Below, in pieces: positions 12,114-16,836 of a stretch of 64,000 bases of DNA. A program made the position numbers and the translations under genes. The stretch comes from an uncultured Roseicyclus sp. (GTDB lineage Bacteria; Pseudomonadota; Alphaproteobacteria; Rhodobacterales; Rhodobacteraceae): NCBI GenBank assembly GCA_947491935.1, contig CANLLF010000002.1, positions 186,001-250,000 on the forward strand, given 5' to 3'. The notes under the pieces were generated by a model. The model searched no databases and had not been told where the DNA came from. It was given only the letters and a program-made list of their open reading frames with translations. How positions within the stretch are numbered: the first letter of the stretch is position 1; the number at the start of each line of letters is the position of its first letter.

Positions 12114-13268
12114 ATGAGTATCCTGTCCGCCCTGTCCGTTTCCCGCCGCCCGGTGATGGCCTTCATGATCGTTGGCCTGTTCTGGGGCAGTTTTGCCGCG
12201 CAGGTGCCGGTGCTCAAGGCGGGCATCGGGGCGGATGATACACTTTTTGGTGTGATTTTGCTGGGCACATCTATCGGTCTGGCCACCACGATGTGGCTTG
12301 CTCCGATCTTTGATCGCAGGTTCGGGCGGCTGGCGATGCCGATTGCGGGGCTGATCTTTGCGGCCGCCGCGATGGGCCCGGCGCTGGCATCTTCACCGCT
12401 GATGTTCTTCTTCGCGATGGTCATGGCGGGCTATTGCTCGGGCATGTTGGATGTTGTGATGAACGCGCGCGTGTCCGAGTTGGAGGCGCGCCAGGGCCGG
12501 TCCCTGATGAACGCCAACCACGCCATGTTCTCCGTCGCCTACGCCATCAGCGCTCTGATGACCGGCTTCGCGCGGGAGGCCGGGTGGGACCCGGTGCAGA
12601 TCTTTGCGGCCATCGCGGTTGTTATCGTCGGCCTGGCGCTGTGCCTCCGGATGGAGGTGGAGCCGATCGATGAAGAGGCGCGCCGGACGAACCGGTTCCC
12701 ATGGGCGACGGTCCTTTTGTGTGGCGCCATTGTCCTGATCGCGTTCTTCGTGGAGGCCACGGTGGAAGCATGGTCGGCGCTCCATATCGAACGGACGCTT
12801 GGCGGGCGCGCGGCAGAGGGCGCGTTGGGCCCGGCCATCCTGGGCCTGACCATGGCGGTTGGCCGGTTCTCGGGCCAGGCCCTGACGGAGCGGTTTTCGG
12901 AAACCGCGATCATCGTGATCGGGACGGGCATGTCGTGCTGCGGCGCGCTGATTGCGGCCACCGCGCCGTCACCGCTCATTGCCTATCTGGGCTTTGGCGC
13001 CATGGGATTGGGGATCGCGGCGGTGGGCCCGGTGGGGCTTGCCATCGTCGGCCGGATGGTGCGGCCTGAGCACCGCACGGCGGCCGTTGCGCGGGCGGCG
13101 GTGATCGGCTTCATGGGCTTCGTGCTGGCGCCGTCCCTGATGGGGTTCGTGTCCGGCGCGTTCGGGCTGCGGATCGCGTTTGCAACCGTTGCACTGGTTG
13201 CGGTGATCGCACCGTTACTGGCGCTCTATCTCCGCGCCAATACGGCGCGCTATTCCCATTCCGTGTGA
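12114..13268 (+). CDS. MFS transporter
   Basis: 384 aa, about 12 TM segments; FMIVGLFWGSFAAQVPVLKAGIGADDTLFGVILLGTSIG. Confidence 0.85.
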   Translation: MSILSALSVSRRPVMAFMIVGLFWGSFAAQVPVLKAGIGADDTLFGVILLGTSIGLATTMWLAPIFDRRFGRLAMPIAGLIFAAAAMGPALASSPLMFFFAMVMAGYCSGMLDVVMNARVSELEARQGRSLMNANHAMFSVAYAISALMTGFAREAGWDPVQIFAAIAVVIVGLALCLRMEVEPIDEEARRTNRFPWATVLLCGAIVLIAFFVEATVEAWSALHIERTLGGRAAEGALGPAILGLTMAVGRFSGQALTERFSETAIIVIGTGMSCCGALIAATAPSPLIAYLGFGAMGLGIAAVGPVGLAIVGRMVRPEHRTAAVARAAVIGFMGFVLAPSLMGFVSGAFGLRIAFATVALVAVIAPLLALYLRANTARYSHSV

Positions 13269-14413
13269 AAGTCTTTCGGCATCAACAGGTTGTGGCGGCC
13301 CAGATCGGCGATGTTCCGTTCGCCGCATAGGGCCATCGACGTATCCAGCTCCTTGTGGATGACCTGCAACGCCTCCGTCACGCCCTGCTGCCCCCGGGCG
13401 CCGAGACCGTAGACAAACGCGCGCCCGATCATCGTGCCCTTGGCCCCCAGCGCGATGGCCTTCAGGACATCCTGGCCCGTGCGGATCCCGCTGTCGAGAT
13501 GGACCTCCATCTTGTCGCCGACAACATCCATGATGCGCGGCAACATGCGGATCGAGCTGAGCGCGCCGTCCAGCTGACGGCCGCCATGGTTGGACACCAC
13601 AATCGCATCTGCACCCACATTCATCGCCTCGCGAGCATCGTCTTCATCGAGGATGCCTTTGAGGATAACCGGGCCATCCCACCACGACCGGAACTCCTTG
13701 ATCCGCTCCCAATTCAGGCTCGGATCGAAGGCCTCCGCCGTCCATGAGCTTAGCGAGCCGGGATCGGTAACGCCCTTGGCATGGCCGACGATATTGCCGA
13801 AGAACCGCCGCTTGGTGCCCAACATCTCAAGGCCCCACGGGATCTTCGTCATCATATTCGCGATCGAGGCGGGGGTGAGTTTGGGAGGAGCCGACAGCCC
13901 GTTTTTGATATCCTTGTGGCGTTGGCCCATGATCTGAAGGTCGACCGTAATCACCAGCGCAGAGCAATGGGCGTCCTGCGCGCGGGCGAAGAGCCGCTTC
14001 ATGAACTCGTCGTCCTTAAGGGTATAAACCTGAAACCAGAACGGCTTCTGCGTATGCTCTGCCACATCTTCGATGGAACAGATCGACATGGTCGACAGGG
14101 TGAAGGGGACACCGAACCGCTCAGCGGCGCGGGCGGCTTTGATTTCGCCGTCGGCGGCCTGCATTCCGGTCAGGCCAACGGGGGCAAGGGCCACCGGCAT
14201 CGTCACATCCTGGCCGACCATCTGGCTGGCGGTCGTGCGCCCGGCCATGTCGCGCGCAATGCGTTGGCGCAGGCGGATCAGATTGAAATCGCTGACGTTT
14301 TCGCGAAATGTCTGCTCCGTCCAACTGCCGGATTCCGCGTAATCGTAGAACATCTTCGGCACGCGCCGTTTGTAGATGCGTTTCAGGTCCTCAATCTCGG
14401 TGATGACAACCAT
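13250..14413 (-). CDS. lldD: FMN-dependent alpha-hydroxy-acid oxidase (L-lactate dehydrogenase-like)
   Basis: IEDLKRIYKRRVPKMFYDYAESGSWTEQTFRENVSDFNLIRLRQR...VSNHGGRQLDGA...HLDSGIRTGQDVLKAIALGAKGTMIGRAFVYG. Confidence 0.88.
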   Translation of the reverse strand: MVVITEIEDLKRIYKRRVPKMFYDYAESGSWTEQTFRENVSDFNLIRLRQRIARDMAGRTTASQMVGQDVTMPVALAPVGLTGMQAADGEIKAARAAERFGVPFTLSTMSICSIEDVAEHTQKPFWFQVYTLKDDEFMKRLFARAQDAHCSALVITVDLQIMGQRHKDIKNGLSAPPKLTPASIANMMTKIPWGLEMLGTKRRFFGNIVGHAKGVTDPGSLSSWTAEAFDPSLNWERIKEFRSWWDGPVILKGILDEDDAREAMNVGADAIVVSNHGGRQLDGALSSIRMLPRIMDVVGDKMEVHLDSGIRTGQDVLKAIALGAKGTMIGRAFVYGLGARGQQGVTEALQVIHKELDTSMALCGERNIADLGRHNLLMPKDFHTEWE

Positions 14414-14487
14414 TTGGGCCCCCTTCCGTCTGGTAAGATTTCCTTACCAATTCTACATCGCGGAGTCTATCTACGGATTACCGCTTG

Positions 14488-14535
14488 ATTATAATACGAT
14501 ATCGCACTAAATATACTGCGATATCGTATTATAAT
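14488..14535. promoter_or_regulatory. 48-bp dyad: perfect 19-bp inverted repeat with 10-bp spacer, likely operator/promoter
   Basis: attataatacgatatcgca-ctaaatatac-tgcgatatcgtattataat; each arm carries cgatatcg; 12 bp upstream of the 14547 start. Confidence 0.88.
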
Positions 14536-14546
14536 GGAGATCAGAC

Positions 14547-15692
14547 ATGACCCTCTCTCGCCGGAAGACACTCGCCCTCATCGGTGGCGGGTCCATCGTC
14601 GCCGCAACCGCCGCGGCGGGGTATGACATCACCCGGTTCCCCCATGCCGCCACCGCGCCATGGAGCGCGGCCGGGGGATACGACGATCCGCGGATGCGCG
14701 CGTTGAGTTGGGCGATCCTGGCCCCCAATCCCCACAACAGGCAGCCGTGGATGGTGGATTTGTCACAGGCTGACACCGCGGTCCTGTTTGTGGATACGGA
14801 TCGGCTCTTGCCGGAGACGGACCCGTTCAATCGTCAGATCACCATTGGGCTGGGGTGTTTCCTGGAAATCATGCGGCTGGCTGCGCTGCAGGACGGGCTT
14901 GCGGTTGAATTCGATCTTTTCCCGGGCGGCAGCGATCCGCGCGGGCTGGATGGGCGGCCCGTGGCGGCCTGCCGGTTTTCGCCCACGGATGCGGCCCCGG
15001 ACCCGTTATTCGCGCTGGTTCCGTTCCGCCGCTCCAACAAGGAGCCCTATGATACCAGCCGCCCCGTTCCGGTGGAGGCGCTGGAGCGGATTGCAACGGC
15101 GCCGATGTATTTCGGCATGGACTTCACCGCGGTGCCCGAGCGTGTGGCGCTGTTGCGGGATCTGTCGACGGACGCACTGCGCATCGAATTCGCCACGGAG
15201 CGGACATTACGCGAATCCGTGGATCTGTTCCGCATCGGTCATCGTGAGGTGGCCGCGAATCCCGACGGGATCGATTTTACCGGCCCCGGGTTCGAAACGC
15301 TCCGGATGACGCGGTTGTTCACCCGGGAAGCCTCCATGAACATGGATGGCTTTGTTGCCCGCTCGGCCGATGCGGCCTTCGTGGAAAACATGCAATCGGC
15401 TATGGCGCATCTGTGGCAGGTTACCCCGGACAACAGCCGTGAGGCCCAGATCCGCGCGGGCCAGGATTGGGTGCGCATCAACCTTGCCGCAACAGCCGAG
15501 GGGCTGGGGCTGCAACCGCTCAGCCAGGCCTTGCAGGAATTCGAGGAGATGCAGGCACTCTACGGCCAGGTTCACGCGGAACTGGCGCCTGGGGGCGGCA
15601 CCGTGCAAATGTGGGCCCGCGTGGGATACGGGCCTGAGGTTGGCGAAAGCCCGCGCTGGCCTTTGGAGGAAAAGATTGTCAGCGGACCCTGA
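14547..15692 (+). CDS. Acg-like nitroreductase family protein with Tat-type leader
   Basis: MTLSRRKTLALIGGGSIVAATAAAGYDITRFPHAATAPW; SWAILAPNPHNRQPWMVDL and VRINLAATAEGLGLQPLSQALQEF. Confidence 0.82.
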   Translation: MTLSRRKTLALIGGGSIVAATAAAGYDITRFPHAATAPWSAAGGYDDPRMRALSWAILAPNPHNRQPWMVDLSQADTAVLFVDTDRLLPETDPFNRQITIGLGCFLEIMRLAALQDGLAVEFDLFPGGSDPRGLDGRPVAACRFSPTDAAPDPLFALVPFRRSNKEPYDTSRPVPVEALERIATAPMYFGMDFTAVPERVALLRDLSTDALRIEFATERTLRESVDLFRIGHREVAANPDGIDFTGPGFETLRMTRLFTREASMNMDGFVARSADAAFVENMQSAMAHLWQVTPDNSREAQIRAGQDWVRINLAATAEGLGLQPLSQALQEFEEMQALYGQVHAELAPGGGTVQMWARVGYGPEVGESPRWPLEEKIVSGP

Positions 15693-16176
15693 TCTGAGGC
15701 TCTATTTCGAGCTGTTCAACGAGATCGGCATTGTCGAGCAACTCAGCCGCGCCGCGTTCGAGGCGCGGTTGCCCAAGGGCGTTCTGGTCTCGCACTTCAC
15801 CGTGTTGAACCACCTGATCCGGGTGGGGGACGGGCCCACGCCGCTGGCCCTTGCCACGGCCTTTCAGGTTCCCAAGACGACGCTCAGCCACACGTTGGCC
15901 CTTCTGGATAAACGCGGTTGGATCGAGATGCGCCCGAACCCGGCCGATGCGCGGTCAAAATGCGTCTGGATCACCGATGCCGGCCGTGCCTTTCGGGAGG
16001 AGGCGATTATCGCGATGACGCCGGATCTTGCGGATGTTGCAAGGGCGTTTTCGCCAGAGGCTGTGGCAAGCATTCTGCCGCATCTCAAGGCCCTGCGCGA
16101 ATTCCTCGACCGTCGACGTGACACGCCCGAGGCGGCCACCCGGCAGGGTGATCAGAGCGAACCGTTGGCGTCGTAG
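15676..16176 (+). CDS. MarR family transcriptional regulator (probable TTG start)
   Basis: TPLALATAFQVPKTTLSHTLALLDKRGWIEMRPNPADARSKCVWITDAGRAFREEAI winged-helix; overlaps upstream gene end. Confidence 0.85.
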   Translation: MSADPDLRLYFELFNEIGIVEQLSRAAFEARLPKGVLVSHFTVLNHLIRVGDGPTPLALATAFQVPKTTLSHTLALLDKRGWIEMRPNPADARSKCVWITDAGRAFREEAIIAMTPDLADVARAFSPEAVASILPHLKALREFLDRRRDTPEAATRQGDQSEPLAS

Positions 16177-16643
16177 ATCGTGTGCAACTCGCCGTAGGTC
16201 ATGTTGTCGCCGGTTTCGAGCGTGACGCCGTTTTCAGCGGCCAGCGCCTCGAATGCGCCGAGATCATCGATGGATTCACCGTCAGCGTAGGTCATATCAA
16301 GCGCCTGTTGGTACAGCTGATCGTAGGCCGCCTGATAATCACCGCCATTGCTCGCCAGGATCGCGGCGACGTAGGATTCGGCCTGTTCCGCCGATTGACG
16401 CGGCGAGAAGATCTCAAGATCACCCCAAGCGCCAAAGGCCGGGGCCGTGTTGGCCCCCCAGTCAAAGAGCGCGCCGGGGTCGATGCTCACCAGTTCCATC
16501 TGGATTTCGCCGGAGAGATCTTCAATGCCACCGGAAACAACCGCCATGGCCGCGAGGCCCAGGCCGACGGCAGCGGCGGTCAGCACGACCCAATCCACCA
16601 CCACCGCGCCATCTTCAGATTGCAAGAAGTGTTGGAAGGGCAT
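16152..16643 (-). CDS. Orphan Flp-pilin-like membrane protein
   Basis: FLQSEDGAVVVDWVVLTAAAVGLGLAAMAVVSGGI resembles Flp/Fap prepilin N-terminus; longer acidic C-terminal domain. Confidence 0.6.
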   Translation of the reverse strand: MPFQHFLQSEDGAVVVDWVVLTAAAVGLGLAAMAVVSGGIEDLSGEIQMELVSIDPGALFDWGANTAPAFGAWGDLEIFSPRQSAEQAESYVAAILASNGGDYQAAYDQLYQQALDMTYADGESIDDLGAFEALAAENGVTLETGDNMTYGELHTIYDANGSL

Positions 16644-16836
16644 CGAGAAAACTCCGCACTGGTCAATCACATTTGACAGAAACTTTGCGGATCAGGTCGG
16701 CATGACAATGGCGTAATGCCGGTTTCACCGCGGCTGAAATGGGCCGAATCCGGGCGGGAATCTCGTCAGAAATGTGATGGCCGGGGTGTGCCAGGAACCG
16801 GGAACGCTCGGGATTTCCACTACAATGCCGGACCGA

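Follow-up and report, generated by a model that had tools for sequence, protein, structure and literature searches.

A perfect inverted repeat lying just ahead of an acg-marR operon in the 64-kb window (the whole stretch of DNA analysed, 64,000 nucleotides) is, with high probability, a two-site operator by which the MarR-family protein encoded at 15676-16176 would repress its own operon, as judged from sequence comparison. The anatomy of the repeat was established by computation. It reads ATTATAATACGATATCGCA-CTAAATATAC-TGCGATATCGTATTATAAT, the right arm being the exact reverse complement of the left, and the exact 19-bp arms and 10-nt loop claimed in the earlier note were thereby confirmed. 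This is the longest perfect stem of the window (loop ≤40), and 20 dinucleotide shuffles of the whole 64 kb gave a maximum of 13 bp; when the AT-rich intergenic region alone was shuffled 1000 times, no stem exceeded 12 bp. The GC content of the dyad is 25%, versus 62% for the window, and 11 bases separate it from the acg ATG (14547). It contains two CGATATCG centres that are indeed 22 bp apart, the distance given before, and it is best read, from the pattern of its bases, as a pair of adjacent 18-bp palindromes with the consensus TARTRCGATATCGYAYTA. The features of the region are listed in Table 1.

Table 1. Coordinates in the window of the predicted operator, the putative promoter and the neighbouring genes.
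Feature	Position	Strand	Basis or remark
lldD-like gene, FMN-dependent L-lactate dehydrogenase, divergent	13250..14413	-	Profile matches
TGGT-N11-ACCA inverted motif, belonging to lldD	14431..14449	.	In 26/32 lldD loci, 0/29 without lldD
Putative -35, TTGATT	14485..14490	+	Inferred promoter; TTG conserved in 53/62 loci
Perfect 19-bp inverted repeat with 10-nt loop (predicted double operator)	14488..14535	.	Sequence and shuffles
Predicted operator site 1, TAATACGATATCGCACTA	14492..14509	.	In the -35/-10 spacer; orthologous position kept in 34/36 loci
Putative -10, TAAATA, 17-bp spacing	14508..14513	+	Register uncertain; TATAGT-like register two bases later possible in relatives
Predicted operator site 2, TACTGCGATATCGTATTA	14514..14531	.	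Over the predicted start region
Shine-Dalgarno-like GGAG of acg	14536..14539	+	Sequence; G-rich downstream columns conserved in relatives
acg, Acg-family (Rv3131-type) FMN-binding oxidoreductase with twin-arginine signal	14547..15692	+	NF047509; nearest solved structure 2YMV
marR, predicted MarR-family repressor, TTG start, overlaps the end of acg	15676..16176	+	MarR_2 profile, AF2 model, fold match

The earlier note had expected the dyad to be conserved upstream of orthologous operons, and this was found to be the case. A protein search with the window MarR returned 57 loci, in 36 of which acg stands directly 5' of marR. The double site was present in 34 of these 36 loci, all found by protein alone; it lies 10-33 bp ahead of the acg start, and its score was unmatched by any of the 200 shuffles made per locus. 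It follows acg-marR in Rhodobacteraceae, in other Alphaproteobacteria and in some Gammaproteobacteria, the carriers including Gammaproteobacteria (Marinomonas, Nitrincolaceae and an Osedax symbiont) and Falsiroseomonas. In a second species of the window's genus the double site also precedes acg, with a spacing of 20 bp, and among 62 distinct operators the centres are 20 bp apart in 53, 21 bp apart in 6 and 22 bp apart in the window only. The 22-bp spacing, previously presented as about two helical turns, is therefore true of the window and close to that value, yet it is an outlier among the relatives, in which 20 bp is conserved. In one locus (L081, 1-500) three operator copies seemingly stand in a row before acg (TAGTACGAAATCGCACTT, TGGTGCGATGTCGTACTA and CAGTTCGATATCGCACTT).

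The two acg-marR loci without the double site, L049 and L054, encode MarR proteins with the recognition helices TKGAMTNT and TKAAITNT, versus PKTT(M/L)(S/T)HT in those with the double site. L049 lacks the CGATATCG core upstream of acg; there, TAGTTTAACG was found by eye twice, 23 bp apart, so that the two-site layout has apparently been kept with a new core and a different recognition helix. A related group of MarR proteins (about 40% identity; L051-L072 and G000:C4:259631-260062) is mostly located elsewhere, without acg, and in one of its members (L060) marR comes after a nitrilase-like gene; the CGATATCG double site was sought throughout this group and none was found. No close relatives were found on plasmids.

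MarR-family proteins use palindromic sites that are read by the recognition helix and the wing. The half-sites were compared at positions 1-5 in 37 non-redundant loci (<85% MarR identity) with 5000 permutations. The two outer half-sites of a locus showed 0.73 differences, versus 1.76 expected, a value reached in 0 of the 5000 permutations, whereas the inner pair showed 1.38 versus 1.40 expected and did not covary at these positions (p=0.44), although they are variable; no covariation was found between outer and inner half-sites in the same comparison. The same result was obtained with the 33 loci of the blind scan described below, each from a different genus. The columns of the recognition helix were associated with the outer dinucleotides more strongly than random columns (p=0.002 and 0.02), but the inner dinucleotides showed no such association (p=0.20 and 0.71). 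In particular, both outer arms have A at position 2 in 19 of the 25 loci whose MarR has Thr69, and in 1 of the 12 whose MarR lacks it (Fisher p=0.0002). When relatedness was controlled by permutation within clusters, the three clusterings gave p=0.21, 0.009 and 0.03. Since this control was only partly passed, the association between helix and operator is partly confounded by relatedness and should be taken as support, not proof.

The MarR at the operon end, proposed in the earlier note as the regulator, is thus a well supported candidate for binding the two sites, given the conservation in 34/36 loci, the absence of the double site where the helix differs and the covariation of the outer half-sites with the helix. 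Most simply, the half-site pattern would mean that the -10 element constrains the inner half-sites and that the outer ones follow the repressor. A bolder reading, which we regard as possible rather than probable, is that all four half-sites act together as a cooperative unit, in which the outer ones would be specificity readers co-evolving as mirror-image pairs with the MarR helix, and the inner ones would double as the -10. If true, the family would be a natural record of repressor-operator co-evolution, and the MarR specificity code could be read from sequence alone.

Agreement between the outer arms might also arise by fold-back (quasi-palindrome) templated mutation, in which one outer arm serves as the template for the other within an otherwise ordinary operator, an origin that is compatible with the preferred explanation. 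In 25 loci the two outer arms resemble one another more closely than they do those of the nearest relative, against 6 with the opposite result, and the inner arms do so less clearly (16 loci against 8); this stronger agreement of the outer arms is what copying outward from a paired core would produce. However, matches in the flanks at positions 1-4 (0.45, 0.50, 0.39 and 0.26) differ little from the permuted values (0.37, 0.40, 0.37 and 0.29), and the outer bases track residues of the MarR recognition helix. Because the symmetry hardly extends past the 18-mers, fold-back mutation is at most a minor contributor, and we consider it unlikely.

The two-site operator appears to overlap the promoter of acg-marR. 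In 53 of 62 loci a TTG resembling a -35 stands 16-18 bp upstream of the junction between site 1 and the linker (site position 1.17); hence, site 1 would occupy the spacer of the promoter, and the start probably lies under site 2. The -10 is placed in the linker and the inner edges because these read TATATA or TATAGT in the operators; its distance from the -35 could be 17 or 19 bp, the register being ambiguous. A generic sigma-70 consensus scan of the window called no promoter at the dyad, so the putative promoter rests on conservation. The TATAAT present in each arm was considered as a pair of divergent functional -10 boxes and was dropped, as it is not conserved in the relatives.

The earlier note had also suggested that the divergent lldD gene could share control by the dyad. 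Such an operator common to lldD and acg-marR would fit the neighbourhood, as about half of the relatives, like the window, have lldD adjacent and divergent. However, 29 loci whose fetched DNA contains no lldD carry the dyad all the same, and the dyad stays beside acg in four loci where lldD is about 870-1070 bp away (L016, L075, L082 and L092); in these four, the distant lldD keeps its own motif of the TGGT-N11-ACCA type. In the window this second conserved inverted motif, near lldD, reads TGGTAAGATTTCCTTACCA; that its regulator is a GntR/LldR-type protein is a guess. Shared control was not borne out, because lldD-free loci keep the dyad and lldD has a motif of its own; it is very improbable, and lldD is probably controlled separately from acg-marR, as far as motif distribution can tell. 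In the window (12114-14413) and in several relatives (e.g. L016-L018, L025 and L046) a gene for an MFS transporter adjoins lldD, which suggests a conserved lldD-transporter neighbourhood.

The specificity of the double site for acg-marR was assessed by a blind scan over the DNA of 397 genomes of the family, using the double-site pattern with 20-bp spacing and up to 3 mismatches. The pattern matched in 33 genomes, exactly once in each, and the reversed control pattern gave zero matches over the same 397 genomes. In all 30 scan loci that were read, the double site lies directly ahead of acg. The genome of the window itself, in which a search for paired sites had been proposed at 22-bp spacing, holds a single full double site, the one at 14488-14535; the seven single 15-mer near-matches elsewhere all fall inside long open frames, and a single-site regulon elsewhere in the genome was rejected for this reason. 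With one double site per genome, ahead of acg, and the single near-matches in open frames, the regulator appears to have one such target, its own operon. Binding of the dyad by some other regulator of the genome could be imagined, as three more MarR-like proteins are encoded there (E≤0.001). Nevertheless, the occurrence of the double site parallels that of the neighbouring marR in different classes, no genome yielded more than one, and where the helix of that MarR differs the site is lost or altered, which makes this alternative slightly less probable still than shared control with lldD. The inverted repeat is least likely of all to act as a hairpin (an RNA leader, a terminator or a DNA cruciform) in place of a protein site, even though the arms could pair perfectly over 19 bp around a 10-nt loop and the symmetry of the whole dyad is kept where single palindromes are broken (29 positions with the inverted pattern versus 6 with the direct one): pairing would matter most in the inner part of the stem, where no covariation is seen at positions 1-5 of the half-sites, on which ground this reading was rejected, the left arm would be untranscribed if the promoter proposed above holds (start inside site 2), the dyad matches no Rfam family, and a terminator scan of it found none.

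According to the operator model favoured here, two MarR dimers would sit side by side, one per TARTRCGATATCGYAYTA palindrome, with site 1 between the TTGATT -35 and the linker -10 and site 2 over the -10 and the putative start of transcription. In that position MarR would block RNA polymerase (repression by occlusion) and thus keep both the exported Acg flavoprotein and MarR itself low, and a small ligand would free MarR and turn the operon on. The inner half-sites would not be able to follow changes in MarR because they also carry the -10 element, and the outer half-sites would be free to track them.

The assignment of the two operon genes was examined with profiles and structural models. The window Acg scored 233 bits against NF047509 of NCBIfam (cut-off 199) and thus belongs to that family, and an RR occurs within the first 20 amino acids in 62 of 62 Acg orthologs. 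MsAcg (2YMV) is its sole solved relative by sequence. With the classical nitroreductase profile of Pfam (PF00881) the score was 22.3 bits, just under the gathering score of 23.5, and the nitroreductase role of Acg is itself contested, as FMN is held but NAD(P)H is not used (2025 review, PMC11841060). Of the earlier description as a Tat-type nitroreductase, the twin-arginine part therefore stands, and the nitroreductase part is to be qualified, the gene product being an Acg-family flavoprotein.

The MarR domain was recognized by PF12802 (MarR_2) with 41.3 bits (cut-off 27). The AF2 model of the window MarR has a pLDDT of 89, with the recognition helix at 67-79, and the nearest fold found by Foldseek is that of E. 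coli MarR, including the MarR-DNA complex. In general, the MarR set gives no support to an OhrR-like thiol redox switch, as no Cys is conserved in it; the commonest Cys column, C96, is occupied in 11 of the 37 non-redundant members. Downstream, between marR and trpA, the opposite strand encodes a small protein (16152-16670) that looks pilin-like by eye and in which an acidic motif (SEDGAVVVDWVVLTAAAVGLG) precedes a hydrophobic N-terminal stretch. In L018, marR adjoins trpA without this small protein.

In the literature searched on MarR, nitroreductase and Acg operons in Rhodobacterales, no description of an acg-marR operon was found. The present analysis provides a predicted operator, consensus and regulator for this conserved and apparently undescribed operon, which occurs in marine Alpha- and in some Gammaproteobacteria, and thereby offers a way into the question of which signals Acg-family flavoproteins answer to. 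Its conservation in dozens of genera of marine bacteria marks the repeat as a real genetic switch, though of a fairly ordinary sort. More than 60 operators, each with its own MarR, make a compact test bed for repressor-operator co-evolution, because both partners lie in one locus and the operator is apparently the sole target.

Several known systems resemble the one predicted here. The mycobacterial Acg/Rv3131 FMN proteins (2YMV) belong to the same NF047509 family as the window Acg, but mycobacterial acg is DosR-controlled, whereas the window Acg has a twin-arginine signal and a paired MarR. MhqR-type MarR proteins, which act on quinone and nitroreductase genes, likewise link a MarR repressor to oxidoreductase genes, a nitroreductase being mentioned in the source (PMC6798810); their likeness to the window MarR may be taken as a functional analogy only. 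The DNA complexes of MftR (8YLG), SlyA (3Q5F), MepR (4LLN) and AbfR (5HLG) have the winged-helix fold in common with the window MarR, although the identity is low (about 18-29%) and the target genes are others. A further parallel is the marRAB operon of E. coli, where MarR is autoregulated through two dimer sites in marO (PMC3920692), as is predicted here, and where site I lies between -35 and -10 (PMC3920692). Of such a marO-like layout, with one site between the promoter elements and a second downstream, the two sites are certain here, the TTG is present in 53/62 loci and the register of the -10 is ambiguous. The two systems differ in the operator sequence, in the regulated gene (marA in E. 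coli, the Acg flavoprotein here) and in the placing of the second site, which in marO is near the translation start, whereas here the sites nearly abut (usually 20 bp from centre to centre) and site 2 lies over the inferred start. The window MarR is far under the cut-off of the E. coli MarR equivalog NF008565 (29.2 bits versus 240) and would thus work in a MarR/marO-like manner without being that member. The acg-marR operon is therefore well supported, on comparative grounds, as an autoregulated MarR operon of a known kind, with a two-site operator and a predicted autorepression like that at marO.
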